Source of the DNA: a virus
DNA: 23,491 nucleotides
IMG/VR virus record: IMGVR_UViG_3300025413_000132
Location: 1-23,491 of that record
Reading direction: 5' to 3' (one strand)
The position numbers were made by a program, and so were the translations under genes. This document shows, piece by piece, positions 4,818 through 20,588 of the stretch. The stretch's first letter is position 1; every line of letters starts with the position of its first letter. The notes beneath the pieces were generated by a model. That model did no database searches and had not been told where the DNA came from. It saw nothing but the letters and a program-made list of their open reading frames with translations.

Positions 4818-5438
4818 TTAGGGTTCCTGAACCGTTACGTTTCTGTCGATGCGGCGTTGGTTGTCTTCTTGTTTGAGCGCGGCCAATGAATCGTCGTAGT
4901 ATTGTTTCCAAATTGGTAGCTTGTCCATGGCTTTTAAATAGCCTTGAGCTTGCAATAAAGAGCCAAACAACATCGCCTGTGGGCACTCGCGCGTGAACAG
5001 ATTTTGTTGATTTTGTGAGTCTAGTGGCTGGATTTCGCTGTAATACAAAATTTCAATGGGGTACGTAGTATCTGGTTTTGGTGCAATAGCCCAGTTGTTA
5101 TAGTCATAATCAGCGTAATAAAGCGGTGTGCCATTCGATGATTCAGCTTGATACTGAGCCACATAATCTTGGCTGCGCAGCAAAATAGGCTGGCCATTAC
5201 ATTTCATTGAAACTGTTTTACGCCAGCGTGCTGGTTTGTTTAGCACCACTTGATTAGTGGCCAGTGTTGTTTCAACTACGGTTAACTGCAAATACGTTTT
5301 TAACTGCGCCGCAATAGCAGACTCAGCCAAACCAATTAAGTTTGGAATTTGAGCTACAAATTGAGCATCATCACGCTCCATGTAGTTAATAATGTCAGCT
5401 ACGAGGTTGTCGTAGGTCATTTGATATGCGCTGGTCAT
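4818..5438 (-). CDS. Head-tail adaptor protein, SU10-like (206 aa)
   Basis: The protein starts with a helical segment (YDNLVADIINYMERDDAQFV, then IPNLIGLAESAIAAQLKTY). A beta core follows (PARWRKTVSMKCNGQPILL, then RSQDYVAQYQ, then PLYYADYDYNNWAIAPKPD and TYPIEILYYSEIQPL), and it ends in a helical hairpin (CPQAMLFGSLLQAQGYLKAM). This order and the 'w.iaP.Pd..Y.iei.Yy..i.pL' signature match the phage adaptor family named after phage SU10, whose members form the ring joining portal and tail. Length is typical. The start codon overlaps the upstream stop as ATGA, so it is coupled to the 357-residue adaptor-like protein. Confidence 0.75.
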   Translation of the reverse strand: MTSAYQMTYDNLVADIINYMERDDAQFVAQIPNLIGLAESAIAAQLKTYLQLTVVETTLATNQVVLNKPARWRKTVSMKCNGQPILLRSQDYVAQYQAESSNGTPLYYADYDYNNWAIAPKPDTTYPIEILYYSEIQPLDSQNQQNLFTRECPQAMLFGSLLQAQGYLKAMDKLPIWKQYYDDSLAALKQEDNQRRIDRNVTVQEP

Positions 5439-8015: not shown

Positions 8016-8044
8016 ACAAAAACAGGGGTTTACGCCCCTAAAAA
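8016..8044 (-). terminator. Terminator hairpin at the end of the lysis block
   Basis: The minus strand gives AGGGG, loop CGTAAA, CCCCT, then GTTTTTGTGC. The 5-bp GC stem (8024-8039) overlaps the lysozyme TAA and is followed by a T-run that leads straight into the GCATTAGT of promoter copy 3. This is the clearest example in the window of a rho-independent terminator fused to a promoter. Confidence 0.65.
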
Positions 8045-8548
8045 CAATGCCCGTTCGCGTTTGCGGCGGTTGATAAGTACTTCTGGTTTATTCCAGTTTA
8101 GGATCGCATCTGCTGCGCCCTGCATGTCATTTTGGTTGATTTTCTTAACTACGGTAGAGTTAGAAAAATTAGTGCTTCCAATATTAAAACAGAGGCTGTA
8201 TAGGGCGTCGAATTGGTGTTGTTGGAGGGGTACCTTTACCGAGGTCTCTACGGCCTCGCTACACCACTTTAAATCCTTCCTAAGCAGGTCTTCTACCTGC
8301 TCGTCTGTCAGGGTAGCTGTCAGCAGGTACTCTTCATCGGTTTTGATGAGGTGGCCAACGCCAATCGTCCAAAGACCCTTGGAGTCTTGGTACGCTTTGT
8401 TGCGTGAGCCTTCTTCTTTGGTAATAAAGTCTAGGGTGGATTTTGCGATTGCCATGAGGTTTTCTTCAATCTGGGTATATCGGTTTGTGAAGTGAAAGGC
8501 TGCAATTATGCCTAAACACCACATTAGTACTACTAAAGTTTTTTTCAT
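8030..8548 (-). CDS. GH24 endolysin with N-terminal signal anchor (172 aa)
   Basis: A lysozyme of the T4/P21/P22 family that cleaves the glycan backbone of peptidoglycan. The catalytic triad pattern E-x8-D-x5-T is intact: Glu46 and Asp55 in EGSRNKAYQDSKG, Thr61 in WTIGVGH. The C-terminus has the family's FNIGS and NRRKRERALF motifs. Residues 1-20 (MKKTLVVLMWCLGIIAAFHF) form a hydrophobic segment with a basic start, rich in small residues and without a lipobox, as in SAR endolysins that the Sec system anchors in the inner membrane. The start at 8548 has an excellent AAAGGAG site. An internal Met32 (MAIAKSTLDF) resembles the first residue of soluble homologues and might give a second, cytosolic form. 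A hairpin adjoins the ribosome site. Confidence 0.92.
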   Translation of the reverse strand: MKKTLVVLMWCLGIIAAFHFTNRYTQIEENLMAIAKSTLDFITKEEGSRNKAYQDSKGLWTIGVGHLIKTDEEYLLTATLTDEQVEDLLRKDLKWCSEAVETSVKVPLQQHQFDALYSLCFNIGSTNFSNSTVVKKINQNDMQGAADAILNWNKPEVLINRRKRERALFLGA

Positions 8549-8561
8549 TTTGGCTCCTTTC

Positions 8562-8582
8562 TTTACGCTAGTATAGCGTAAA
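8562..8582 (-). promoter_or_regulatory. Perfect hairpin abutting the endolysin ribosome site
   Basis: On the minus strand TTTACGCTA, loop TAC, TAGCGTAAA forms a 9-bp perfect stem. It ends 1-2 nt before the AAAGGAG ribosome site of the lysozyme gene and 12 nt after the Rz stop codon. There is no T-run, so it is unlikely to be a terminator. An RNA-processing site, a 5' stabiliser or a translational control element is possible. Confidence 0.6.
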
Positions 8583-8594
8583 TTGGGGGGTCAC

Positions 8595-9005
8595 TTATTT
8601 ACTTAGTGAGTCGTATTGGGCGTAGCAGGCTTGGAGGCTGGAGCGGAGGAGGTCTGCTCTGGCAGCTTCCCTAACAAGAAATTCTGCATCCTCGGCAGAA
8701 AGGGCTCGCCCAGTTCCGTCTTGTCCATTTGTGGCGTCTTGGGCGCGACTGGGACGTTGACGCAGCTGACTAACAGCATCGAGCAGCTGAGTATTAATAG
8801 TTTGAATTTGTGCATCTTTTTCAGTCCTTATTTGGTCTGCTTCTGCTTGGTGTCGTTGTTCGGTTTCTTGGACAAGTCGGGTTTGTTCCAACCGATATGC
8901 TTCAAAGCGGCTAGACTCAAAATGATACCCGCTATACCAAGCGGCAGAAAGAATAACAGCAGCAGCAATAATTTTGGCATAAGTTAAGATAGATAAAGGA
9001 AACAT
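8595..9005 (-). CDS. Rz-like inner-membrane spanin (136 aa)
   Basis: Residues 1-25 (MFPLSILTYAKIIAAAVILS then AAWYSGYHF) are an N-terminal membrane anchor. Residues 27-90 are a Gln/Glu/Arg-rich coiled coil (EQTRLVQETEQRHQAEADQI, then KDAQIQTINTQLLDAVSQLR), and a Cys occurs near residue 127 (LQACYAQYDSLSK). This is the typical topology and length of lambda Rz-type i-spanins, which pair with an outer-membrane lipoprotein and fuse the two membranes at the last step of lysis. The decisive support is a second frame inside it that encodes an Rz1-type lipoprotein. The start overlaps the holin candidate's stop as TAATG. Neighbours upstream and downstream complete a lysis cassette. Confidence 0.85.
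   Translation of the reverse strand: MFPLSILTYAKIIAAAVILSAAWYSGYHFESSRFEAYRLEQTRLVQETEQRHQAEADQIRTEKDAQIQTINTQLLDAVSQLRQRPSRAQDATNGQDGTGRALSAEDAEFLVREAARADLLRSSLQACYAQYDSLSK
8603..8815 (-). CDS. Rz1-like outer-membrane spanin lipoprotein, nested in Rz (70 aa)
   Basis: Embedded in a different frame within the Rz gene, starting at an ATG at 8815 with AAGGA about 9 nt upstream. It opens with a lipoprotein signal peptide (MHKFKLLILSCSMLLVSC) whose lipobox LVSC ends at Cys18, the expected lipidated residue. The mature part is short and Pro-rich (NVPVAPKTPQ, EPFLPRMQN, PASKPATPNTTH), as in lambda Rz1. In such pairs the lipoprotein sits in the inner leaflet of the outer membrane and binds the Rz C-terminus in the periplasm. 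The stop lies 8 nt before the Rz stop. Nesting, lipobox and Pro content together make this a strong call and imply a Gram-negative host. Confidence 0.85.
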   Translation of the reverse strand: MHKFKLLILSCSMLLVSCVNVPVAPKTPQMDKTELGEPFLPRMQNFLLGKLPEQTSSAPASKPATPNTTH

Positions 9006-9229
9006 TATTCACTCTTTTGAGTTGCAGCCTTTGCACCAATCATCACGCCAGATCCACCTAATGTGGTAGCTAGGCCCATACCTAATTTTTCCAAGTCAAT
9101 CTCGGTGCCATGGAATGCAGCAAACAAAGCAATACCTAAAAAACCTAACACGCACACCACAGCACAGAACCGTGCAGCGCAGTATGTTTGGTTGTCGTCT
9201 TCGGTAAGGATGTCTTTAAACAATTTCAT
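9005..9229 (-). CDS. Holin or pinholin candidate, two membrane segments (74 aa)
   Basis: A small protein with a soluble N-terminus (MKLFKDILTEDDNQTYCAAR), a strong hydrophobic segment at residues 19-42 (CAVVCVLGFLGIALFAAFHG), and a Gly/Ala/Thr-rich second segment at residues 49-68 (LGMGLATTLGGSGVMIGAKA). The charged tail is KAATQKSE. Two membrane spans with a small-residue-rich second span fit class II holins and pinholins. The lysozyme bears a SAR-type anchor, with which a pinholin is the usual partner. The gene starts directly after the preceding stop (TAAATG) and its stop overlaps the Rz start, inside a dense lysis cassette. The holin label rests on topology and neighbours. Confidence 0.65.
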   Translation of the reverse strand: MKLFKDILTEDDNQTYCAARFCAVVCVLGFLGIALFAAFHGTEIDLEKLGMGLATTLGGSGVMIGAKAATQKSE

Positions 9230-9451
9230 TTAGTTGGGTTTTGCCATGAAATAGTGACTAATAAAACCAACAAACGAGCTAAATGCGGAGACGACCATCA
9301 TGCCTGCCCACATACCGCCTTTAGATTTATTTGCCAACTCACAAAGTTGCTCAACTGATTTTTCGAGTTTGTCGATCTTTTTGTCTAGTGCGTCAACTGT
9401 CGCAACAAGTTGCCCGTACTTAAACATGTCGACTTGATTGTCGTGTTCCAT
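9230..9451 (-). CDS. XhlA-like membrane protein with coiled coil (72 aa)
   Basis: I prefer the ATG at 9451, 1 nt after the previous stop, over a TTG three codons upstream. The N-terminal two thirds form a heptad-patterned coiled coil (YGQLVATVDALDKKIDKLEK, SVEQLCELANK), and a single C-terminal hydrophobic span follows (WAGMMVVSAFSSFVGFISHY). This is the topology of the XhlA/hemolysin family and of several phage lysis-associated membrane proteins, which help holins or anchor lysis partners. It lies directly upstream of the holin candidate with no gap, so a lysis role as antiholin or accessory holin is plausible but unproven. No catalytic motif is seen. Confidence 0.6.
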   Translation of the reverse strand: MEHDNQVDMFKYGQLVATVDALDKKIDKLEKSVEQLCELANKSKGGMWAGMMVVSAFSSFVGFISHYFMAKPN

Positions 9452-9452
9452 G

Positions 9453-9701
9453 TTATCCAATCAATGCTGTTACTTCAGCTTGTGTTAGTCCTAATGCTGT
9501 TAGTTTAGCTAATGCAGAAGCCTTTGCATCTTTAGCATTTTGTTTGTCTTTTTCTTCGGCAGCTTGGAGTTCTATTAACTTGGCTTGTGCTGCGGCTAAG
9601 TCATATTGAATTATTTGCTCATTTTTGTCATAAGCTACATCGCCACGAATAGTAATAATAGATGGATTAATTGCGTAAATTGCATTATGTAAAGTTGCCA
9701 T
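9453..9701 (-). CDS. Small fibre-associated protein (82 aa)
   Basis: The start is placed at the ATG at 9701, 1 nt after the preceding stop with an AGGAAG ribosome site, instead of an in-frame ATG at 9722 inside the previous gene. The N-terminus (MATLHNAIYAINPSIITIRG, then DVAYDKNEQIIQYD) is followed by an Ala/Lys/Glu-rich helix and ends ALTKL-type 'TALGLTQAEVTALIG'. Proteins with this opening and a C-terminal L.aLGLT..E..aLiG tail recur beside phage tail-fibre genes as possible assembly or capping factors. That is from memory of genome neighbourhoods, not a known function. It closes the fibre block before the membrane lysis proteins begin. Confidence 0.6.
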   Translation of the reverse strand: MATLHNAIYAINPSIITIRGDVAYDKNEQIIQYDLAAAQAKLIELQAAEEKDKQNAKDAKASALAKLTALGLTQAEVTALIG

Positions 9702-9702
9702 A

Positions 9703-10128
9703 TTAGCTTCCTGAAATTTCAATTAAAGTAATTGTTCCAGCATTAGTAGTGCTTACTGTTCCAGTTGCTGTACTATTTCTTGCATAAATTGTATATGTGG
9801 TTGCTGACGTAGTAGAAGGAGAATCTAAATATGTAAGTGCTTGTCCTGTTGTTAAAGAACTCCCAGTGCCAGTGTATTGACCACCAATATCTCCACTTAC
9901 ACTTGAGCCACCCCGATATACGGCTAAAGTTAGACCTGTACCGTTAGCAGAACCATTCCAAATACAAGTGTACAAAACTAATATTTTACTAGTAGTACTT
10001 TGTGGTGTAATCGTTGCGGTTGCAGTTGTTGCCGTTGGGGTATTTGCAGTTGTGGAAAAACCAGTTGGAATATTAGCATTAACCACCTGCAATACTGTCT
10101 GTCCACTACCATATAAAGATACTGACAT
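9703..10128 (-). CDS. Tail-fibre domain protein, YGSGQTV type (141 aa)
   Basis: The opening YGSGQTVLQVVNANIPTGF, a central ATITPQSTTSKILVLYT segment, and the closing YLDSPSTTSATTYTIYARN followed by GTITLIEISGS make up one complete fibre domain. Many environmental tail-fibre proteins carry this module at the C-terminus. Here it is encoded as a separate gene with its own ribosome site. The whole protein is Ser/Thr/Gly-rich with no cysteine pair or catalytic motif, apart from one Cys in YTCIW. The junction with the previous gene is TAA, 9 nt (GGAATAATT), ATG, as at six other junctions. It probably forms part of a trimeric receptor-binding tip or attaches to a common shaft. Confidence 0.7.
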   Translation of the reverse strand: MSVSLYGSGQTVLQVVNANIPTGFSTTANTPTATTATATITPQSTTSKILVLYTCIWNGSANGTGLTLAVYRGGSSVSGDIGGQYTGTGSSLTTGQALTYLDSPSTTSATTYTIYARNSTATGTVSTTNAGTITLIEISGS

Positions 10129-10137
10129 AATTATTCC

Positions 10138-10542
10138 TTAAACAGGATTAGCGATTGCTACTAATTCAGCAGTCGTTGTAGCAGATGCAATGCTTTCACG
10201 GCTAGTAGCTAATTCAGAAGCAAAGTCAGCGTCAGATTTAGCGTTAGCAATACCAGCTAATGTGTTTAATTGACGCTTTTGGGCTACTTGAACCGCAGCT
10301 GCATTAAAGTCACGCAGTTTGTGGGCTTGGGCTGTTGGGAAATCTACAGTAATAGTAGAGCCATCTAGCTTCCATGCGTCAAAAAAAACGGAATCAGCAC
10401 CTTGAGGTAGAGTGCTGTCATCCACAATAATTGCACCAGCAGGGCAGTCTTTTGCTAAGACTTCGTTAATTGGTAATTCGCCTGTTGGGACACAGACAGA
10501 TACACCGCCATTTGAGTTTGTATAAATGATTACTTGTGTCAT
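10138..10542 (-). CDS. Fibre-associated protein of unknown function (134 aa)
   Basis: Unlike its neighbours, this protein mixes acidic, helical and beta segments. The N-terminal part reads TQVIIYTNSNGGVSVCVPTG, then ELPINEVLAKDCPAGAIIVD with a Cys near residue 32. An 'FFDAWKLDGSTITVDF' strand pair follows, then a helical tail with repeats of Ala/Thr/Glu (AELVAIANPV at the end). I recall the 'IIYTN.nGGVSVC.PTGElpI.eVLakDcPaGaiIvD' block in phages next to fibre genes, where it may be a chaperone or a baseplate-attached tip, but no function is established to my knowledge. It has a good AAAGGA ribosome site at 10542. Confidence 0.6.
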   Translation of the reverse strand: MTQVIIYTNSNGGVSVCVPTGELPINEVLAKDCPAGAIIVDDSTLPQGADSVFFDAWKLDGSTITVDFPTAQAHKLRDFNAAAVQVAQKRQLNTLAGIANAKSDADFASELATSRESIASATTTAELVAIANPV

Positions 10543-10557
10543 TTTGATTCCTTTATA

Positions 10558-10938
10558 TTATCTTGTTACAGTTACAGCTACAAATGTTGGATTTACTAAA
10601 GAATTAGAGCTTCTATCAAGCGTGGATATATATAAAATACTTGCAGTAGATGTAAAGTTAGCAGAGTAATTTACAAACATTTGATTTGAAGTTCCTGCGT
10701 AATTAGCCATTCCTACGGCTGAATAATTTGCATCAGTCATTGCAGTTGTAAAATTTATACCAAATTGTCCAGTAGAATTATAAGTAATAGAACTAACATT
10801 AAAAGAAGCGTTTATTATTGGTGATGCCCCACCACCAAAGTTTACCCATGCCTTTGCACTACCTTTAATAGCATTAGTTGTTGCGGTGCTGTTTCCTGCA
10901 CCATCTTGTAAAACATCCGATACGATTGTTCCTGCCAT
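10558..10938 (-). CDS. Tail-fibre domain protein, AWVNF type, paralogue B (126 aa)
   Basis: A short N-terminal handle (MAGTIVSDVLQDGAGNST) precedes AKAWVNFGGGASPIINASFN, then VSSITYNSTGQFGINFTTAM and TDANYS, which is a recurrent phage tail-fibre module. The rest is a run of beta strands ending NPTFVAVTVTR. The next gene upstream (10942-11322) is a clear paralogue of equal length with the same handle, the AKAW core, SFNVSS and the NFTTAM..ANY block, while the C-terminal third differs. The stop-to-start gap is 3 nt. The C-terminus probably carries the variable binding surface. Tandem duplication with divergence of the tip fits host-range change. Confidence 0.7.
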   Translation of the reverse strand: MAGTIVSDVLQDGAGNSTATTNAIKGSAKAWVNFGGGASPIINASFNVSSITYNSTGQFGINFTTAMTDANYSAVGMANYAGTSNQMFVNYSANFTSTASILYISTLDRSSNSLVNPTFVAVTVTR

Positions 10939-10941
10939 GAT

Positions 10942-11322
10942 TTATGCTCCAAAAATTACTACTGATACAAATGGACTATCTTGATACCCTGATGCCGCAC
11001 TATTTTGCATGGCAATTTGATAAGCAGAGGTTGTTCTAGTTCCTGACCAAAATTCGCCCACATTGCTTGGTGCAGAGCCACTTGCATAATAAGCAGTAGC
11101 AATAGTTCCAGCATAGTTAGCATTAGCCATTGCAGTAGTAAAATTTACTGTGTAATTACCTGCACTATTTCTAGTTACAGAACTTACATTAAAAGAACCA
11201 TTAACTACAGCAGTAGAGCCTGTAAACATTACCCATGCTTTAGCTATACCTAAATAAGCATTGTTGGTGCTAAATAGACCTGTATCGGTGTTAATTGTGT
11301 TTGCGACTAGAGTGCCAGCCAT
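10942..11322 (-). CDS. Tail-fibre domain protein, AWVMF type, paralogue A (126 aa)
   Basis: The same architecture as the following gene: MAGTLVANTINTDTG handle, AKAWVMFTGSTAVVNGSFNV, then SSVTRNSAGNYTVNFTTAM and ANANYA. The C-terminal third (FWSGTRTTSAYQIAMQNSA, DSPFVSVVIFGA) is unlike paralogue B. Equal length (126 residues), shared handle and adjacent position argue for tandem duplication. The junction with the previous gene is TAA, 9 nt (GGAAAAATT), ATG. There is no membrane, signal or catalytic motif. I take it to be a receptor-binding tip domain encoded separately from the fibre shaft. Confidence 0.7.
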   Translation of the reverse strand: MAGTLVANTINTDTGLFSTNNAYLGIAKAWVMFTGSTAVVNGSFNVSSVTRNSAGNYTVNFTTAMANANYAGTIATAYYASGSAPSNVGEFWSGTRTTSAYQIAMQNSAASGYQDSPFVSVVIFGA

Positions 11323-11331
11323 AATTTTTCC

Positions 11332-11655
11332 TTAAACGATTACCCAACGTGAGCCAGTAGAAACTGTGACAACAACGCCAGTATTAATAGTTACTGTTCC
11401 TGCGGTAGAAGCATTTTTACCACTTGGTACAGTATAGTTAGCGGTTATGGTTTGGTCATTTAAATTAAATACTTGGTTAGAACCACCGCCTGTTGCGCCA
11501 CCGCCAACAGAACCCCATGAAGAGCCGTTATAACCTTCAAATTGATTAGTAGTAGTATTAAATCCCATTTCACCAGCAACTGGTGATGCAGGACGGGTAG
11601 CAGTTGTCCAAGATGGAAAGAAGGCTCCATTTGAGCCATCAATAATCATTGTCAT
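11332..11655 (-). CDS. Tail-fibre domain protein, EGYNGSSW type, short form (107 aa)
   Basis: This protein starts with TMIIDGSNGAFFPSWTTATR, then PVAGEMGFNTTTNQFEGYNG and SSWGSVGGGATGGG, followed by QTITANYTVPSGKNASTAG, and ends VTVSTGSRWVIV. The FNT..fEGYNG..W..GGGATGGG block is one of the most widespread phage fibre modules. The 174-residue gene at 13517-14041 has the same module at its C-terminus, so the two are paralogues within one block. The start overlaps the stop of a 53-residue gene (ATGA). The protein consists almost only of the module, so it is effectively a fibre domain cut out as its own gene. Confidence 0.7.
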   Translation of the reverse strand: MTMIIDGSNGAFFPSWTTATRPASPVAGEMGFNTTTNQFEGYNGSSWGSVGGGATGGGSNQVFNLNDQTITANYTVPSGKNASTAGTVTINTGVVVTVSTGSRWVIV

Positions 11656-11813
11656 ACTGTCACCTCATCGGCTGGTAATGGTTCGTTACCCTCGGACTTC
11701 CACAACAAAAAGGCTTGATAGTCTGTGTTGGCTGGGTCGAATGGGATGCAAGAGGTTTTATTACCATCAATCAGAAGGACTTGATTTGAAAACTTTGTAA
11801 GTTGATAAATCAT
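11652..11813 (-). CDS. Small fibre-linked protein (53 aa)
   Basis: A short gene overlapping its upstream neighbour's stop (ATGA at 11813) and its downstream neighbour's start (ATGA at 11655). The product begins MIYQLTKFSNQVLLIDGNK, then TSCIPFDPANTDYQAFLLWK, and ends GNEPLPADEVTV. The phrase IPFDPANTDYQ.FL.W with G(N).P.PAD is one I know from small proteins beside tail-fibre genes in many phages, where it is sometimes fused to the fibre end. Perfect coupling on both sides and a continuous, non-repetitive, Trp/Tyr-containing sequence make it real. It may be a fibre-capping or assembly factor. No biochemical role is known to me. Confidence 0.75.
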   Translation of the reverse strand: MIYQLTKFSNQVLLIDGNKTSCIPFDPANTDYQAFLLWKSEGNEPLPADEVTV

Positions 11814-12892
11814 AACTCTGCTCCTGATGTATCTATGTAAGTTGTTGCGCCATTAGGACTTGCAATGACATTGTTTCCCCCCGTCCCCACTACATACAAA
11901 GTGAATCCATTGTTATCGGGGTTATATGCGACTGGTTGTCCACATCCACTGAGAGTCCATGTGCCATTTTTATTTACAGTTGGCGATGTTCTCATTGGAA
12001 CTGGGAAAGGAACTGCAATACCAAATACTGCCGTTGCTCCAAAAGTGTTTCCATATATAGACGGATAAGAATTATTTGCCCCATTTGAACGCCAGTAATA
12101 CCTCTGACACAAAGCCAACTCAGTTCCATACTGACGATACTCAAATCCAGTAGCACTACTTCCTACTTCTAGTTGAACACCAGTAATATAGAAGGTTGCT
12201 CCGCTTGTTCCTACTACGGATGTTGCACCTGTAGCTGAAAGTCCTGTAGAAGATGTCCAAGAACCAGCCGTTTGGCTATATGTTGAACCTGTACCTAAGC
12301 TCCACATTACTTCAACACCTGTACCATTAGTAGCGCCAACCCAAGTACCAGTTGTATCACCAGCAATAGTTACGCTAATTGGTGTCCAAGTATTTGCGGA
12401 AGAAACTGTATAAGAATACGGATAAAAACGATTATTAGCAGAATTTCTTAAACAACCGCCAAAAGTTCCTGTTAATGATGAATAAACTTGAAAACTTAAA
12501 GTTACAGTTTTTGCGTTGGCAGTACCCCAATTAAAATCAGCAAAATTAAAACCTTCTATTTTTTGGCTAACTAAAAAATAATCCGTTGAAGTAATGCTAT
12601 AAGCGGAAGATGATGTCATTCCTAAATAATTACTAAATCCTGCTGGAGGGGTAACTGAACCAGCATTTTGTTGGATTGTAAATTTAGAATTTTGTGAAGC
12701 ATTAAGGGTATATCTATCGCATGAAACATAACTTGAACCTGTTTGTACGCTTGTGCTTCCTGTGCCGTATTGAGCTATATTCATCGCACCATTAATAATG
12801 CGGTTCTTCATAATAGAAGCGTTTCCTGCACCTAGATTGCTTCCTGCTACGCTTGTACCGATTACATCAGCATTGACTGTTCCGTAAGCCAT
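11810..12892 (-). CDS. Tail-fibre receptor-binding protein with CBM-like domain (360 aa)
   Basis: After an N-terminal handle (GTVNADVIGTSVAGSNLGAG) comes the widespread fibre domain starting KNRIINGAMNIAQYGTGSTS, with CDRYTL near residue 60. It continues through the KIEGFNFADFNWGTANAKTV block (residues 113-132), the ISVTIAGDTTGTW block (residues 171-183) and YITGVQLEVGSSATGFEYRQ (residues 235-254), and then LCQRYYWR. These conserved blocks resemble a CBM4/9-like beta sandwich used for glycan recognition. Only the last 90 residues, after CQRYY, are unfamiliar and may form the tip. It is the largest single member of this fibre array. The junction upstream is TAA, 9 nt (GGATAAATC), ATG; downstream it overlaps the 53-residue gene as ATGA. 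Confidence 0.8.
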   Translation of the reverse strand: MAYGTVNADVIGTSVAGSNLGAGNASIMKNRIINGAMNIAQYGTGSTSVQTGSSYVSCDRYTLNASQNSKFTIQQNAGSVTPPAGFSNYLGMTSSSAYSITSTDYFLVSQKIEGFNFADFNWGTANAKTVTLSFQVYSSLTGTFGGCLRNSANNRFYPYSYTVSSANTWTPISVTIAGDTTGTWVGATNGTGVEVMWSLGTGSTYSQTAGSWTSSTGLSATGATSVVGTSGATFYITGVQLEVGSSATGFEYRQYGTELALCQRYYWRSNGANNSYPSIYGNTFGATAVFGIAVPFPVPMRTSPTVNKNGTWTLSGCGQPVAYNPDNNGFTLYVVGTGGNNVIASPNGATTYIDTSGAEL

Positions 12893-12901
12893 GATTTATC
12901 C

Positions 12902-13507
12902 TTATTCGTACAAGATGTTGATTGAGCCATTGGTAAATACGTCTGTTCCGTTTGTAGTTGCAAGAGCGACTCTATCTAATGTTCCACTTAAAGTTACAGT
13001 AGAAGTTGCGTAGTTAAGTTCTGTGCCAGATGAATTTGAAGTAATCGCTGTGCTTGATGTGCCAATCCAAATATTAGAACCAATATTTGTCCATATCGCA
13101 GTTCCGGTCCAAAGATAAGAAGCAGAACTTAGGTTTACAACACCCAAACCTGTTTGAATTGTTGAGCTTGCAACAGTATTTCCTGATATGTACGCTTGCG
13201 CACCACCGTATCCTGAAGTTTTTAAACTACCACTACCAATTTGGGATTCTATTCCGCTTGAACCATTTGTGCCAACTGCAAAAATCGTAAGAGTAATTCG
13301 TTTAACCCAACTAGGAATTCCTGTAATAGAAACGCTTGTACCCGATGTAGAAGCTACGGCAGTTCCGCTAACAATATTAGTAGAAACGCCTTGAACTGCG
13401 GCTGTTCCTGTACCAGCGGGTAATGTAATAGTATTTGTACCAGCTACGCTTGGGGCAGCTAGGGTAATTGCCCCGCTTGTATCGCCTGAGATTACGATTG
13501 AACTCAT
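12902..13507 (-). CDS. Tail-fibre domain protein, VKRITLTI...INILYE type (201 aa)
   Basis: The N-terminus, SGDTSGAITLAAPSVAGTNT followed by ITLPAGTGT, is a handle seen at the shaft end of many phage fibres. The rest is the domain with VSGTAVASTSGTSVSITGIP, SWVKRITLTIFAVGTNGSSG, a central Gly/Ser-rich beta region, and the ending LDRVALATTNGTDVF, TNGSINILYE. The closing 'NGtD.F..GsiNIlYE' is characteristic of environmental tail-fibre C-termini. No enzymatic or metal motif is visible. Its junctions on both sides are TAA, 9 nt, ATG. It probably assembles as a trimeric receptor-binding tip. Whether it joins a common shaft or forms a separate short fibre is open. Confidence 0.75.
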   Translation of the reverse strand: MSSIVISGDTSGAITLAAPSVAGTNTITLPAGTGTAAVQGVSTNIVSGTAVASTSGTSVSITGIPSWVKRITLTIFAVGTNGSSGIESQIGSGSLKTSGYGGAQAYISGNTVASSTIQTGLGVVNLSSASYLWTGTAIWTNIGSNIWIGTSSTAITSNSSGTELNYATSTVTLSGTLDRVALATTNGTDVFTNGSINILYE

Positions 13508-13516
13508 TGTTTATCC

Positions 13517-14041
13517 TTAAAAAACTATCCAGCGTTGACCCGCTGGAATGGTAACTGTTGCGCCCGCATTGATTGTAATTGGACCAACTGATTCGGCATT
13601 ATAACCTGTAGTTAGTGTATAACTAGTAGTTACAATGGCTTGGTTTTGTACAAAAACTTGGTCTGGGCCACCACCTGTTGCACCTCCGCCAATTTGACTC
13701 CAAGCAGTTCCGTTATAGCCTTGAAACTCAGAGACAGATGTGTTGAATCGAATCATACCAACAGCAGCATTGGCGGGCTGTTGTACGGTATTACCAACAG
13801 GGATTTCTAATGCGCCGTTGCTTAGTACAATAAGTGTGCTATTAGCACTATCCCACTGCAGGTGTGAGTTTACGTTACTATTTGCTAGTACAGACACAAC
13901 ACTGTTTGCGTTTTTGTAATACAAAATACCATCGGCAGTATTTACCGCCAACTCACCACTGGCCAAGTTTGCCGCGGCGGGCACATGTCCAGCCGTTGGG
14001 CTGTAATACATCTGAATTGTAGTATTGCCAGAAGATGCCAT
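13517..14041 (-). CDS. Tail-fibre protein with handle and EGYNG-type domain (174 aa)
   Basis: The N-terminal half (TIQMYYSPTAGHVPAAANLA, SGELAVNTADGILYYKN) is a common fibre start with a 'GELAVNTADG.LYYKN' motif. The C-terminal half (about residues 80-174) reads GMIRFNTSVSEFQGYNGTAW, SQIGGGATGGG and then a YTLTTGYNAESVGPITINAG strand run ending PAGQRWIVF. This half is paralogous to the whole 107-residue protein at 11332-11655. It begins the fibre array directly after the glycosyltransferases, 2 nt after their last stop, with an AAAGGT site. It carries both a shaft-like start and a tip-like end, so it may be a complete short fibre. Confidence 0.75.
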   Translation of the reverse strand: MASSGNTTIQMYYSPTAGHVPAAANLASGELAVNTADGILYYKNANSVVSVLANSNVNSHLQWDSANSTLIVLSNGALEIPVGNTVQQPANAAVGMIRFNTSVSEFQGYNGTAWSQIGGGATGGGPDQVFVQNQAIVTTSYTLTTGYNAESVGPITINAGATVTIPAGQRWIVF

Positions 14042-14043
14042 GT

Positions 14044-14478
14044 TTATACCTTTAAGTATTCTAAAACTTCTGATGGTTTTAGAAAGCGTTCATTTTTATG
14101 CTCTGTTGCTTCCCACCAAAGAAACTGATTCTTTGCTAGGTGTTCTCTGCCTTTCAGCAAATTAATATTTTCAGGGTGTCCGTATATCAGTGGATCAGAA
14201 GGTCCCCACAATACTACACCTTTTATTCCTTCGTCCCAGCCAAGGTGTTGGAAAAAACTATCTACTCCAATCCATGTGCGGCATTGCCAAAGTAATTCCC
14301 TTAATGCACTAATCGGCAAGTCAGTTCTAAAATCAGAAACTAACTGTTTTTCGCCCGTTACGCCAACTTGTACAATTGGCTCGTCAATTAATTCAATCAA
14401 TTCTTCCCAATACGGATAATTCTTGGGATTTTGTTTGCCGTTACGTAGTTTTTGGGCGTATGGTGCTATGATAATCAT
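14044..14478 (-). CDS. GT9-like glycosyltransferase C-terminal half (144 aa)
   Basis: This reads like the donor-binding half of a heptosyltransferase (GT9). It has MIIIAPYAQKLRNGKQNPKN, then PYWEELIELI, a Val-Gly-Val-x-Gly-Glu turn (VQVGVTGE), ELLWQCRTWIGVDSFFQHLG near residue 85, and VVLWGPSDPLIYGHPENINL near residue 108. The GVDSF-H and WG..DP.I.GH motifs correspond to the GVDTG..H and GPT.P regions of GT9. No N-terminal Rossmann half is present in this gene, but the gene upstream ends in a segment resembling one and the two overlap as ATGA. The natural reading is a split enzyme, possibly a two-chain GT9. It could also work alone as a nucleotide-sugar binding partner. Confidence 0.7.
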   Translation of the reverse strand: MIIIAPYAQKLRNGKQNPKNYPYWEELIELIDEPIVQVGVTGEKQLVSDFRTDLPISALRELLWQCRTWIGVDSFFQHLGWDEGIKGVVLWGPSDPLIYGHPENINLLKGREHLAKNQFLWWEATEHKNERFLKPSEVLEYLKV

Positions 14479-15443
14479 AGGTATAACTTCCGATACGCGT
14501 CTTCTAAACTACCTTGCCACTTCCACTGGTCCATCTTTTTATAGATGTTCCAAATATCAATACCGCCAAACAACTGTTGCGCTTCTGCTATTGGTCTACC
14601 TTGAATTACTTCAGGATAGCATGTAAAAACAAGGGGATTGCGAACAGCAGGCAAAACGTGACTAAAGACAATATGATCGCCGAGACCGCAATTAAGAACG
14701 ACAATAGTATGGTCTTTGTACTTAAGGACATTTCTAAATATTTGCTCATCGTGCTCGTACATCTCCCGCTTTGTCTCACTGCGAATGCCACCTTGTGGGT
14801 TCTTCATGTGCCATGTTACTGCGTCAGGCACAACTAAAATCTGATACTTCTTTCGATGCAAACCGTATGTAAACAAGGTTTCTTCTCGATGGGCAACACG
14901 CGATAACCCAAGATTATAATCATAGACACCAGCGCGATACAAAAAAGTGCAGTGTAAATGTTCAACTTGTTTGACTCGTTCAATTTTGCCCCACTGGATG
15001 TTAGGTTCAGAATCAATGTTATCAATTGTACCAGATACTGCGCTGGTGTCTGGCAAGTAGGGCGGGGTTAACACCGAGCCACCTACCGCACCAACGCCAA
15101 CATCAAAGTGTTTAATTAAGTTCTCTAGTACGTTAGGCTCTGGTATGGCATCATCATCAACGCGCCAAACTAAATCATAACCCATACTATTTGCTCTTTG
15201 GTGGATGTGGTGTTGACCTTTTTTCTCAGCGTACGCCCACTCCCAAGCAATGTTTTTACTATTTAGTATCTGAAAGAAATACTGGTAAATCATTTCGTTG
15301 CGCATGTCCTGCGGCTCGTCATTGTCATCAAATATCACTAGCTTATCGGGTAAGCGAGTTTGATTAATGATGGCGTTTAATACGAGCGGTAGTGTGCTGT
15401 GATACCTACCCCGAGTTGCTACAGAGCAAAGTATTTTACTCAC
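14475..15443 (-). CDS. GT2 glycosyltransferase fused to GT9-like N-terminal segment (322 aa)
   Basis: Residues 1-235 are a GT-A fold transferase: CSVATRGRYHSTLPLVLNAI, FDDNDEP, the metal-binding VDDD at 95-98 (RVDDDAIPEPNVL), and the HREET acid region at 185-189, which resembles the catalytic end of GT2 enzymes. From about residue 245 a second unit begins (HTIVVLNCGLGDHIVFSHVL, PAVRNPLVFTCYPEVI) with the GLGDHI loop of the N-terminal Rossmann domain of GT9 enzymes. It runs about 75 residues to the stop, and the next gene supplies a GT9 C-terminal half. The start overlaps the preceding gene by 8 nt. The likely targets are virion proteins such as the adjacent fibres or host surface glycans; the sequence does not say which. 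Confidence 0.8.
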   Translation of the reverse strand: MSKILCSVATRGRYHSTLPLVLNAIINQTRLPDKLVIFDDNDEPQDMRNEMIYQYFFQILNSKNIAWEWAYAEKKGQHHIHQRANSMGYDLVWRVDDDAIPEPNVLENLIKHFDVGVGAVGGSVLTPPYLPDTSAVSGTIDNIDSEPNIQWGKIERVKQVEHLHCTFLYRAGVYDYNLGLSRVAHREETLFTYGLHRKKYQILVVPDAVTWHMKNPQGGIRSETKREMYEHDEQIFRNVLKYKDHTIVVLNCGLGDHIVFSHVLPAVRNPLVFTCYPEVIQGRPIAEAQQLFGGIDIWNIYKKMDQWKWQGSLEDAYRKLYL

Positions 15444-16713
15444 TAGCAGTCCACCTACAGATCATCAAATTGCAAGGGTTTGTTTCAGTAATATCTTGCG
15501 GCGTATCTGTAATTTCACCTTGCTCGTTAATATAATTAAACTCAAAGCTAGGGAAGTGACGCTCATTTAATCCATGCAACTTGTGATGTGGCCCCCAAAA
15601 ACCCGGCGGCTCATTCATTGGTACAGTAATTAGTAAACGCTTGCAGTGCTTTTTAAACTTTTCAACAATCTCTAAACCTTTGTCAAGGTGTTCAATTACT
15701 TCAAAGGCAACGATGGTATCGTACTGCCCCATTTCAAACTGATTGATATCAGCGCTAATAAAAGTATTATTCGCACCATTCCAATTTTGTTCCTTAGCTA
15801 CTTCTACAATAATCGGATCGTAATCAACTCCAGTGTATTCAATGTCATCTGGAAAAAACTGCCTGCCGTATCCGTTTGTGCAACCTAGCTCAAATATTTT
15901 GTTTCCAAGCAAATTCTTTGCTGCCCATTCGTATCTTGTTACTTCACGCGGGAATACTGTATCGCCCTTAAGAAATACTGCTCGCTCCCAGAAGTTTGAT
16001 AGGCGCCAGCGGTACCATTCAATGTTGTACTTCTTGGCTAACTTTAATGAGTTTAACAAGAAGATGTTATCCCAGCCCTGTACCAGATTGGCGTCGTGCA
16101 TGGTACCTTCGCCCTTGTGGTAGATTGGAAAACCGCCGGTATATTGCTCACCGTTCCACAGCTTCTCAAATACCTCTAGGACCTTAAATCCGGCTTTCTC
16201 AGCTTCAATACAGAACTCGGTGTCCTCACCCCCGCCTACGCCGTACTCTTCGTTTAGAAGCCCGATTTTGTCAAATACTTTTTTGTGTATCATTACACAG
16301 AAAAATATTGCAAAATACTTGCCAGCAGGCTCGGATAGACCTTTAATGATACAACTGATGCCACAATTTGGATCACTAAATGGTTTATCTAAAATTTCCA
16401 GCCATTGGTTCTTAGGCTGTTCTAACAACACAGTGTCGTTGTTTAGCAGGATAATTTTACCTGCGGTTGCTAACTTAATTCCAGCGTTTGTAGCTTTTGC
16501 ATAACCTAGTGGGCTGTCATCCCAAGCAATGACTAGGTTAGGGACTGTTGTTTTTACATAGTCTAAATATGCTTTGGTGTTATCTGTACACCCGTTGGCT
16601 GACACTACCAGCTCCACGCCAGCAAGGTCAGTATACTTAATAATTGACTCTATGCAGGGTTTTAAGTATTTCTCGCAGTTGTTGTAAGTGGGTATTACTA
16701 CGCTGTATTTCAT
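15436..16713 (-). CDS. GT2 glycosyltransferase-SAM methyltransferase fusion (425 aa)
   Basis: Residues 1-235 are a GT2 domain: VVIPTYNNCEKYLKPCIESI at 5-24, SANGCTDNT at 38-46, LGYAKATNAG then GKIILLNNDTVL with NND at 91-93 standing for DXD, and GGEDTEFCIEAEKAGF at 161-176. From about residue 270 a class I methyltransferase follows: motif I FELGCTNGYGR at 274-284, GVDYDP at 295-300, ISADINQF, and the motif AFEVIEHL at 336-343, then LLITVPMNEPPGFWGPHHKL at 360-379. Such fusions can add and methylate a sugar in one chain. It is the first gene after promoter copy 2, with an AAAGGA ribosome site, and overlaps the next gene by 8 nt. The acceptor is unknown; fibre or host glycans are candidates. 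Confidence 0.85.
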   Translation of the reverse strand: MKYSVVIPTYNNCEKYLKPCIESIIKYTDLAGVELVVSANGCTDNTKAYLDYVKTTVPNLVIAWDDSPLGYAKATNAGIKLATAGKIILLNNDTVLLEQPKNQWLEILDKPFSDPNCGISCIIKGLSEPAGKYFAIFFCVMIHKKVFDKIGLLNEEYGVGGGEDTEFCIEAEKAGFKVLEVFEKLWNGEQYTGGFPIYHKGEGTMHDANLVQGWDNIFLLNSLKLAKKYNIEWYRWRLSNFWERAVFLKGDTVFPREVTRYEWAAKNLLGNKIFELGCTNGYGRQFFPDDIEYTGVDYDPIIVEVAKEQNWNGANNTFISADINQFEMGQYDTIVAFEVIEHLDKGLEIVEKFKKHCKRLLITVPMNEPPGFWGPHHKLHGLNERHFPSFEFNYINEQGEITDTPQDITETNPCNLMICRWTASE

Positions 16714-18920: not shown

Positions 18921-20588
18921 TTATGCTTGTTGAGCCAAAGCAATAACATCCCAAAAAGTTGCCGCAGTATTGTATATGCAACCAACATACAATATTTTGG
19001 AAATAGTTGTTGAAGAAGGCAAAGTTGTTCCTACAATTCTATATCCACCGCTTGAAGTTGTCCAAGTCAAAGTTTGTGATGTTCCGTTATCCAATATACG
19101 AATAATTAACTTTTGACCATCAACGGGGCTTCCGGTTGGTGCATTGATTGTCAAACCTGTAGCAAGGGCAGTTACTTCATATTGGTCTGTAGTTCCTGCG
19201 TTTGGTGTTATTGAAGCCGCACTAGTTGTTGATGTTATTCTTGGTGCTACATAGGTATTTGTGCCAGAGTAACCAGATATGCCACTGTAGCCAGAGATAC
19301 CAGAGAATCCGCTGTAGCCAGAGATACCAGAGAATCCGCTGTAGCCAGAGATACCAGAGAATCCGCTGTAGCCAGAGATACCAGAGAATCCGCTGTAGCC
19401 AGAGATACCAGAGAATCCGCTGTAGCCAGAGATGCCAGAGAATCCAGAAATGCCAGAGTAGCCACTAATACCAGAAAAGCCACTAATACCAGAAAAGCCA
19501 CTGTAACCAGAGATACCAGAAAAGCCACTATATCCAGAGATACCAGAAAAACCACTGTAACCAGAGATACCAGATGCGCCGCTATATCCAGAGATACCAG
19601 AAAAACCACTGTAACCAGAGAAGCCACTGTAGCCAGAGATACCGCTGTAGCCAGATAGACCAGAACCACTATAGCCACTAATACCAGAGTAGCCACTATA
19701 GCCACTAATACCAGAGTAGCCACTATAGCCACTAATACCAGAGTAGCCACTATAGCCACTAATACCAGAGTATCCACTATATCCAGAGATACCGCTGTAG
19801 CCACTATACCCAGAGATGCCAGAAACGCCACTATAGCCACTAATACCAGAGTAGCCACTATAGCCACTAATACCAGAGTATCCACTATATCCAGAGATAC
19901 CGCTGTAGCCACTATACCCAGAGACACCAGAGAAGCCACTGTAGCCAGAGATACCGCTGTAGCCAGATAGACCAGAACCACTATACCCCGATACGCCACT
20001 ATATCCTGATGTGCCACTGTAGCCTGATAATCCTAAACCACTGTAGCCACTGTACCCAGACACGCCAGAACCACTATAGCCAGAAATGCCGCTATAACCA
20101 GAAATGCCACTGTAGCCTGATATACCGCTGTAACCTGATATACCGCTGTAACCTGATATACCGCTGTAACCTGATATACCGCTGTAACCTGATAATCCTA
20201 GTCCACTGTAACCTGATATACCACTGTAGCCCGAGATGCCAGAACCACTGTACCCAGAAACGCCACTGTATCCGGAGACGCCACTGTAACCAGACTTGCC
20301 ACTGTAACCAGAAATACCGGAGTAGCCACTAAAACCAGATAGTCCAGAATAGCCAGACCAGCCAGAAATAGGGCCAATAACTTGTTGCGTACCGTCGCTG
20401 TAATAAATTACTAAATCGCCGTTCGACGGAACGTAAACAATTGTAGTGATCAGTTTGCCGGGCGACGCAGCATTGGCAATCTGTGACACAGACGCCTGCT
20501 TTGTTACTCCGTTTTGTACCAGCGGTACCTGTTCGTTACCAGTTAAGGTGATCGCAACAGGCAGCTGCGTTATCGACTGATCTGCCAT
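18921..20588 (-). CDS. Collagen-like tail fibre with Gly-X-Ser repeats (555 aa)
   Basis: Residues 1-75 form an N-terminal domain (MADQSITQLPVAITLTGNEQ, VPLVQNGVTKQASVSQIANA) that is a frequent start of phage fibres. Residues 76-443 are about 120 triplets of Gly-X-Ser with X mostly Tyr, Ile, Phe, Val or Leu, occasionally broken by Gly-Ser-Gly. The last 112 residues are a C-terminal head (NTYVAPRITSTTSAASITPN, GQKLIIRILDNGTSQTLTW, YVGCIYNTAATFWDVIALA) widespread in phage fibres. A trimeric collagen-like shaft with globular ends is the natural reading. Proline is absent from the triplets, so stability would not rest on hydroxyproline. The start at 20588 has no clear Shine-Dalgarno site. The DNA contains perfect 27-nt repeats. 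Confidence 0.9.
   Translation of the reverse strand: MADQSITQLPVAITLTGNEQVPLVQNGVTKQASVSQIANAASPGKLITTIVYVPSNGDLVIYYSDGTQQVIGPISGWSGYSGLSGFSGYSGISGYSGKSGYSGVSGYSGVSGYSGSGISGYSGISGYSGLGLSGYSGISGYSGISGYSGISGYSGISGYSGISGYSGISGYSGSGVSGYSGYSGLGLSGYSGTSGYSGVSGYSGSGLSGYSGISGYSGFSGVSGYSGYSGISGYSGYSGISGYSGYSGISGYSGVSGISGYSGYSGISGYSGYSGISGYSGYSGISGYSGYSGISGYSGYSGISGYSGSGLSGYSGISGYSGFSGYSGFSGISGYSGASGISGYSGFSGISGYSGFSGISGYSGFSGISGFSGISGYSGISGFSGISGYSGFSGISGYSGFSGISGYSGFSGISGYSGFSGISGYSGFSGISGYSGISGYSGTNTYVAPRITSTTSAASITPNAGTTDQYEVTALATGLTINAPTGSPVDGQKLIIRILDNGTSQTLTWTTSSGGYRIVGTTLPSSTTISKILYVGCIYNTAATFWDVIALAQQA
19300..19434. repeat. Five 27-nt tandem repeats in the collagen-like gene
   Basis: Five consecutive 27-nt units start at 19300, 19327, 19354, 19381 and 19408 with only the last base of the last copy differing. 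Each encodes nine residues (three Gly-X-Ser triplets), so a gain or loss of units keeps the frame. Their near-identity at the DNA level, beyond what protein repetition requires, points to recent duplication or slippage. Confidence 0.85.
19674..19924. repeat. Second 27-nt repeat array with a ~98-nt duplicated block
   Basis: Four 27-nt units (19674, 19701, 19728 and a one-base variant at 19755) are followed by two more at 19836 and 19863. A block from about 19719 to 19816 recurs exactly at 19827-19924, offset 108 nt (four units). This indicates nested duplication that keeps the reading frame. Confidence 0.8.

Follow-up and report, generated by a model that had tools for sequence, protein, structure and literature searches.

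A ten-gene host-recognition locus with slot-specific handles, exchangeable tips and dedicated small partners in an IMG/VR phage

Introduction

Why would a phage carry a row of short tail-fibre genes, most encoding a single tip domain behind a short N-terminal handle? This question is raised by IMG/VR record IMGVR_UViG_3300025413_000132, a 23,491-base virus fragment analysed here in full ("the window"), in which ten consecutive minus-strand open reading frames (ORFs) occupy positions 9453-14041 ("the array"). A sequence-only reading had presented these genes as an "exploded" version of the long fused fibres thought to be usual in other phages, and had proposed either several alternative short fibres or a set of tips competing for one attachment site. 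Here, we find that the array is a host-recognition locus lying between glycosyltransferase and lysis genes, and we consider it moderately probable that it encodes several short, separate adhesins, each in its own slot, with exchangeable tips and dedicated partners.

Results

Handles of the AWVNF pair keep their slots while tips cross between them

Homologous loci (given L numbers below) were collected as the best 80 per query, using protein families seeded mostly from the window's own genes, gene calls made in this analysis beyond the window, and dereplication by k-mer overlap. The clearest view of how the array evolves came from its two AWVNF-type tips. In the window, these belong to a conserved block, TIP11332-AWVNF-AWVNF-P134-TIP9703-P82, headed by the gene at 11332..11655, and elsewhere AWVNF genes are likewise usually paired, followed by the 134-amino-acid (aa) gene and preceded by a gene ending in the TIP11332 domain. 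The N-terminal handle, about 26 residues long, is typically MAGTLVANTINTDTGLFSTNNAY.GI in the first gene of the pair and MAGTIVADTLQDGAGNSTAMDNAIYGS in the second. When best matches in other loci were considered, those of the handle fell in the same slot for 127 of 133 proteins, those of the core for 95 of 134, and those of the C-terminal part for 70 of 134, while amino-acid identity drops from 0.81-0.95 in the handle to 0.09-0.23 in residues 79-117. On a poorly resolved tree of the AWVNF domain, the position label needs 14 changes versus a shuffled mean of 30.7, a value as low being reached in none of 500 shuffles.

Individual exchanges could also be identified at the DNA level. Slot 1 of L481 and slot 2 of L472 are ~97% identical through the tip and ~50-60% identical in the handle, and slot 1 of both L453 and L448 shares near-identical tip DNA with slot 2 of L455 behind unrelated handles. 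In all three slot-1/slot-2 comparisons, identity begins about the handle/domain junction and ends near the stop codon. Near-identical tip DNA behind unrelated handles, along with the slot counts for handles, therefore indicates that handles remain with their slot and that tips move.

Ten separate genes make up the array

The row of consecutive small fibre-domain genes described by the sequence-only reading is real, and its domain types match that description. The ten ORFs, comprising seven tip or trunk genes and three small partners, are spaced by -4 to +15 nucleotides (nt), with an A/G-rich Shine-Dalgarno-like stretch before most of them and separate start sites; two -4 overlaps suggest translational coupling. 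Calling all ten products small was an overstatement for the gene at 11810-12892, whose product reaches 360 aa, and the last gene (9453) most likely starts at the ATG at 9701 rather than at the listed TTG at 9722, which overlaps the preceding gene.

PHROG tail-fibre families match the 360-aa gene (11810; 1e-48) and both AWVNF genes (10942 and 10558; 1e-19). For the two EGYNG genes, the matches lie in C-terminal parts of PHROG families, mostly unannotated ones along with those of long fibres, and neither the 12902 nor the 9703 gene has a significant Pfam or PHROG match of its own. A conserved N-terminal anchor followed by a hypervariable distal part was found for AWVNF slots 1 and 2 and for the CBM-like fibre, in which residues 1-270 are conserved and residues 271-360 hypervariable. 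In the AWVNF model, residues 1-28 are extended and of low confidence, and the remainder forms an eight-strand beta-sandwich of mostly high confidence.

Of the dereplicated homologues found with handle-free queries, 88 of 99 AWVNF proteins were standalone (≤150 aa), and 49 of 54 CBM-like fibres did not exceed 450 aa. The term "exploded" relied on such domains being mostly fused in other phages, a premise that does not hold for these families, at least in their nearest homologues.

Most tip types have a dedicated partner gene

Most tip types are accompanied by a small gene of their own, a feature absent from the sequence-only reading. In dereplicated counts, the CBM-like fibre is followed by the 53-aa partner in 74 of 76 cases and, reciprocally, this partner is preceded by a CBM-like fibre in 72 of 75; the YGSGQTV-type tip is followed by the 82-aa partner in 66 of 76; the 134-aa partner is preceded by an AWVNF gene in 80 of 95; and a 54-aa XkdW partner is preceded by a C1q gene in 38 of 39. 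Some partners are chimaeric, with an N-terminal half of the P134 type and a C-terminus of the P82 type: 16 distinct ones were found, and the six listed all follow an AWVNF tip. Chimaeras in L363, L372, L375, L380, L381, and L382 suggest that the partner is itself modular.

The small downstream partners are probably fibre chaperones acting in trans. The 134-aa partner yields an AlphaFold model of high confidence (mean predicted local distance difference test, pLDDT, of 94) that divides into an alpha/beta N-terminal half and a helical C-terminal half. Its best match in a viral structure library was an uncharacterised protein of S-CBP42 (E 4e-4), and an annotated tail fiber assembly protein U matched weakly (E 0.03, probability 0.94), with no convincing match in a fold search of the PDB. 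Homologues of this partner reached at best PF16778, a tail assembly chaperone family, in Pfam (E 0.22), and sequence searches of the PDB with the AWVNF and 134-aa profiles returned nothing useful. With its two-part model and weak matches to assembly proteins, the 134-aa partner may act like a fibre assembly chaperone, although it has no match to Pfam Tfa. As for the shorter partners, the 53-aa protein of the window has no Pfam match, XkdW (PF09636) included, and C1q partners of relatives match PF09636 at 30.0 and 26.5 bits, against a cut-off of 24.6.

Single modules are replaced in close relatives

The relatives of the window are IMG/VR contigs, with Caulobacter phages of 62 kilobases at a greater distance. 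Contigs with anchor proteins about 95-99% identical to those of the window carry differing contents before the same lysis flank. In the position of the array, L084 has one 770-aa fibre and small genes, L087 has C1q/54-aa/CBM/53-aa modules, and L279, whose first array gene is 99% identical, has a C1q gene and its 54-aa partner where the window has the 12902 gene. In L279, as in other relatives, this C1q pair lies behind a 12902-type handle: the DNA of the window and L279 is 97-100% identical across the leader and into the handle for its first 60 nt, beyond which identity is no higher than between unrelated DNA. This break and the differing contents of the locus therefore indicate that single modules, including a tip behind a fixed handle, are replaced in close relatives. 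Variable content between near-identical flanks, as in metaviromic islands, was found for L084, L087, L279, and L034 relative to the window, and the number of genes ranges widely, from one long fibre with small genes up to ten genes. Comparison with relatives, which the sequence-only reading had put forward as a check, thus revealed replacement, gain, and loss of single genes, and its picture of a receptor-binding locus in which several genes each encode a short-handled single-domain tip was supported.

Homing-endonuclease-type genes lie between tip and partner genes of relatives at L039:3331-3924, L270:12668-13171, L172:4246-4734, and L279:9234-9725, three of them of the HNH_3 type and one GIY-YIG-like with a NUMOD3 motif. 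A motif flags homing endonucleases in 21 of 51 intervening ORFs, about three of which look false. Such genes could drive tip exchange in the arrays of relatives; none is present in the window array.

Tip arrays and long S74 fibres look like alternatives

Trunk genes that share the ~54-aa handle of the gene at 13517-14041, a handle type which in relatives heads fibres of up to >1000 aa, come in two layouts. Some end in TIP11332, a domain found at the C-terminus in 172 of its 174 copies. These trunks are short, and tip modules come next in 15 of 25, versus 7 of 51 other trunks (p=8e-5, kinship ignored). Others are long, and Peptidase_S74 (S74) was detected in seven of the ten long trunk-handle fibres chosen for a Pfam scan, one of these seven (L178) lying just below the cut-off; the L084 fibre of 770 aa has a borderline match. 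A tip or partner gene was found within three genes of none of seven S74 trunks versus 18 of 25 TIP11332-ended ones (p=0.001, dereplicated, kinship ignored). Pfam detected no S74 in the window array genes, and none of 435 tip proteins carries it. Judging from these gene neighbourhoods, cis-chaperone S74 fibres and trans-chaperone tip arrays look like alternatives, mutually exclusive in this sample.

Three long fibres with the same trunk handle stand in tandem in each of L305 (6687-11819), L306, and L297 (6702-10595), an arrangement that fits competition for one site.

Genomic context

Genes lie on the minus strand, in the order collagen-like fibre, 642-aa protein, three glycosyltransferase-type genes, array, lysozyme/spanin-like genes, and structural genes (Table 1). 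In L214, L279, L010, and L008, the counterpart of the collagen-like fibre bears TIP11332. Many of the examined relatives also have glycosyltransferase genes adjoining the fibre locus, and the window gene at 14475-15443 has 427 matching stretches among viral contigs. Such genes might act in modifying glycans of the virion or of the host. The lipoprotein-like ORF within the probable lysis cassette encodes 70 aa and lies out of frame inside the spanin-like gene, reminiscent of Rz/Rz1 pairs. The PHROG and Pfam matches of the window record, a fragment, include no reverse transcriptase of a diversity-generating retroelement.

Table 1. Array genes and neighbouring features of the window.
Feature	Position	Strand	Description
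Trunk/slot 1 gene, 174 aa	13517..14041	-	~54-aa N-terminal handle, EGYNG, C-terminal TIP11332 domain
Slot 2 gene, 201 aa	12902..13507	-	Handle MSSIVISGDTSGAITLAAP..., VKRITLTI/INILYE tip
CBM-like fibre, 360 aa	11810..12892	-	Handle MAYGTVNADVIG...
53-aa partner	11652..11813	-	Cognate to CBM-like fibre
EGYNG gene, 107 aa	11332..11655	-	Own short handle, C-terminal TIP11332
AWVNF tip, slot 1 of pair, 126 aa	10942..11322	-	Handle MAGTLVANTINTDTGLFSTNNAYLGI, beta-sandwich
AWVNF tip, slot 2 of pair, 126 aa	10558..10938	-	Different handle MAGTIVSDVLQDGAGNSTATTNAIKGS, homologous beta-sandwich
134-aa partner of AWVNF pair	10138..10542	-	Alpha/beta N-terminal half, helical C-terminal half
YGSGQTV-type tip, 141 aa	9703..10128	-	
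82-aa partner of YGSGQTV tip	9453..9701	-	ATG start at 9701
Collagen-like fibre gene	18921-20588		Upstream of array; Pfam Collagen, E 1.7e-48
Glycosyltransferase-9-like (weak), glycosyltransferase-2, and glycosyltransferase-2/methyltransferase genes	14044..16713	-	Upstream flank
Probable lysis cassette	8030..9460	-	Downstream flank
Phage lysozyme	8030-8548		Pfam
Spanin-like pair	8595-9005		Embedded lipoprotein 8603-8815
Small membrane proteins	9005-9460		Downstream flank
SU10-adaptor homologue	4818-5438		Among structural genes

Discussion

In the explanation that we favour, the locus would encode several short, separate receptor-binding proteins, present together in the virion and presumably trimeric, each made of a short N-terminal handle serving as the address of a physically distinct attachment slot and of one exchangeable tip domain with a hypervariable distal half that would contact a receptor. 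The dedicated small partner of most tip types would fold or cap its tip in trans, in a chaperone-like manner. Recombination at gene ends and where handle meets domain would swap tips and retain the slot handle, such that the receptor set could be altered piece by piece through tip replacement. Where relatives have a long fused fibre headed by the trunk handle of the window, a cis S74 chaperone domain might take the place of this arrangement.

Several observations weigh against this explanation. Fourfold sites, too, are more alike in the handles (0.74 and 0.64) than downstream in slot 1 (about 0.42), so handle conservation may partly reflect recombination anchoring, and slot-specific handles could be old recombination anchors instead of distinct docking addresses. 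The 52% same-slot rate for the AWVNF C-terminal part may partly reflect signal loss in fast-evolving sequence, and a closely similar C-terminal match exists for only about 15 proteins, in the same slot for eight of these and across slots for seven. The 13517, 12902, and 107-aa genes lack an obvious partner, and the 134-aa partner of the window has no Pfam Tfa or Caudo_TAP match, its only hit being DUF1869 at 0.49. Finally, the top PDB match of the AWVNF model, the receptor-binding domain of the Pam1 tailspike, is weak (E 0.04), as are all other top matches, mostly phage tailspikes and fibres.

Among the alternatives, the one that best withstands these data, although we regard it as unlikely, is that the small proteins join non-covalently in a single composite fibre, with AWVNF-1, AWVNF-2, and the other tips docked on a TIP11332-ended trunk as the hub; the slots would then be positions on that fibre and not separate fibres. 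Such an assembly would agree with the strictly C-terminal position of TIP11332, with its presence at the end of the gene before the first tip in 119 of 207 cases versus 76 of 1183 at baseline, with the TIP11332 gene that precedes the first AWVNF gene in most cases, and with the fixed order TIP11332-AWVNF-AWVNF-P134 in 85 loci (not dereplicated). Adjacency of genes is not contact, however; TIP11332 also terminates many fibres of other phages, and arrays starting with a CBM-like fibre usually have no TIP11332 neighbour (25 of 29).

We consider it rather improbable that the array is a reserve, from which one or a few tips reach each virion and the remainder serve as an archive for recombination. 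Tips do turn over rapidly in otherwise near-identical genomes, and homing endonucleases lie between the tip genes of relatives, but all genes of the array are intact with their own starts, and the conservation of gene order, partners, and slot-specific handles across distant phages suggests that every slot is used.

Competition of interchangeable tips for a single attachment site, one of the two options of the sequence-only reading, would account for the two AWVNF paralogues and the two EGYNG/TIP11332 genes found side by side, and for the two or three long fibres of one handle type in L305/L306 and L297. It appears very improbable, since the handles of the AWVNF pair differ by position and stay there while the tips cross. 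Still less credible is the origin implied by "exploded", namely fission of one long fused fibre. L084, with anchor genes 97-99% identical, does have a single 770-aa fibre where the window has the array, and a 461-aa gene of L039/L041 combines handle, collagen, and TIP11332; yet the 770-aa fibre matches the window array in the trunk handle only, and among the nearest homologues the AWVNF and CBM-like tips usually stand alone and the tip proteins have no cis S74, which together argue for replacement rather than splitting. A sequencing or assembly error that falsely splits one continuous frame is ruled out for practical purposes by the 100% identity of the array in separate contigs (L002, L003, L004, L005, L203, and L205), by its operon-like stops, starts, and spacing, and by homologues of equal lengths in many other phages.

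Elements of this organization are known from other phages. Host-recognition metaviromic islands of marine phages hold CBM, C1q, XkdW, and fibre genes (Mizuno et al. 2014, PMC3909814), and tip variants shuffle among near-identical cryoconite phages (PMC7468147). As in the window array, carbohydrate-binding, C1q, XkdW, and tail-fibre genes thus occupy a region variable between near-identical genomes, whereas here gene number varies widely and handles mark the slots; as far as consulted, these two reports describe neither slot-specific handles nor a cognate partner for each tip. A comparable row is present in the cultured Puniceispirillum phage HMO-2011 (GU557055), whose host belongs to SAR116: about 14 small fibre-type genes follow one another there, among them homologues of AWVNF, C1q, CBM-like, TIP9703, TIP11332, and P134. 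Their order is only partly shared, and the tail backbone and handle sequences differ. An AWVNF homologue is also present in Microcystis phage Mel-JY33.

Fibres with dedicated chaperones have been characterised in Pam3 (gp24/gp25, PMC9608196) and in Alteromonas phages A5/V22 (fibre and DUF4376 chaperone, PMC10579305), and these pairs, like the Mu fibre/Tfa pair, show the same succession of a fibre gene and a small partner as in the window. The two-part logic of Pam3 gp25 and TfaMu, an N-terminal binding half and a helical C-terminal half, cf. intramolecular chaperones, also resembles that of the chimaeric and 134-aa partners (PMC9608196). These systems comprise one fibre and one chaperone, whereas the window has several pairs in a row, with partner families that Pfam does not assign to Tfa. 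Several receptor-binding proteins per phage also occur in Ackermannviridae (PMC11414711), there described as multiple tail spikes in a branched complex, which sets them apart from the short single-domain tips of the window with handles of about 26-54 residues. A limited literature search found no description of several tip-partner pairs in a row combined with position-specific handles. We tentatively propose that the array represents a multi-slot apparatus of single-domain proteins, in which a short peptide address marks each site, recombination at one fixed junction exchanges tips, whether of like or unrelated fold, between and within addresses, and folding falls to tip-specific trans-chaperones, as a possible evolutionary alternative to the long cis-chaperone fibre.

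It is plausible that the array widens host range, as had been suggested. A multi-slot organization predicts several tips per virion and a requirement for the partner in folding. Annotation is usually missing for small "hypothetical" fibre genes and the genes around them; a rule linking tip type to partner type and handle to position would distinguish, within a receptor-binding protein, the portion that sets position from the portion that evolves, and would allow many host-recognition loci of uncultured phages to be parsed.
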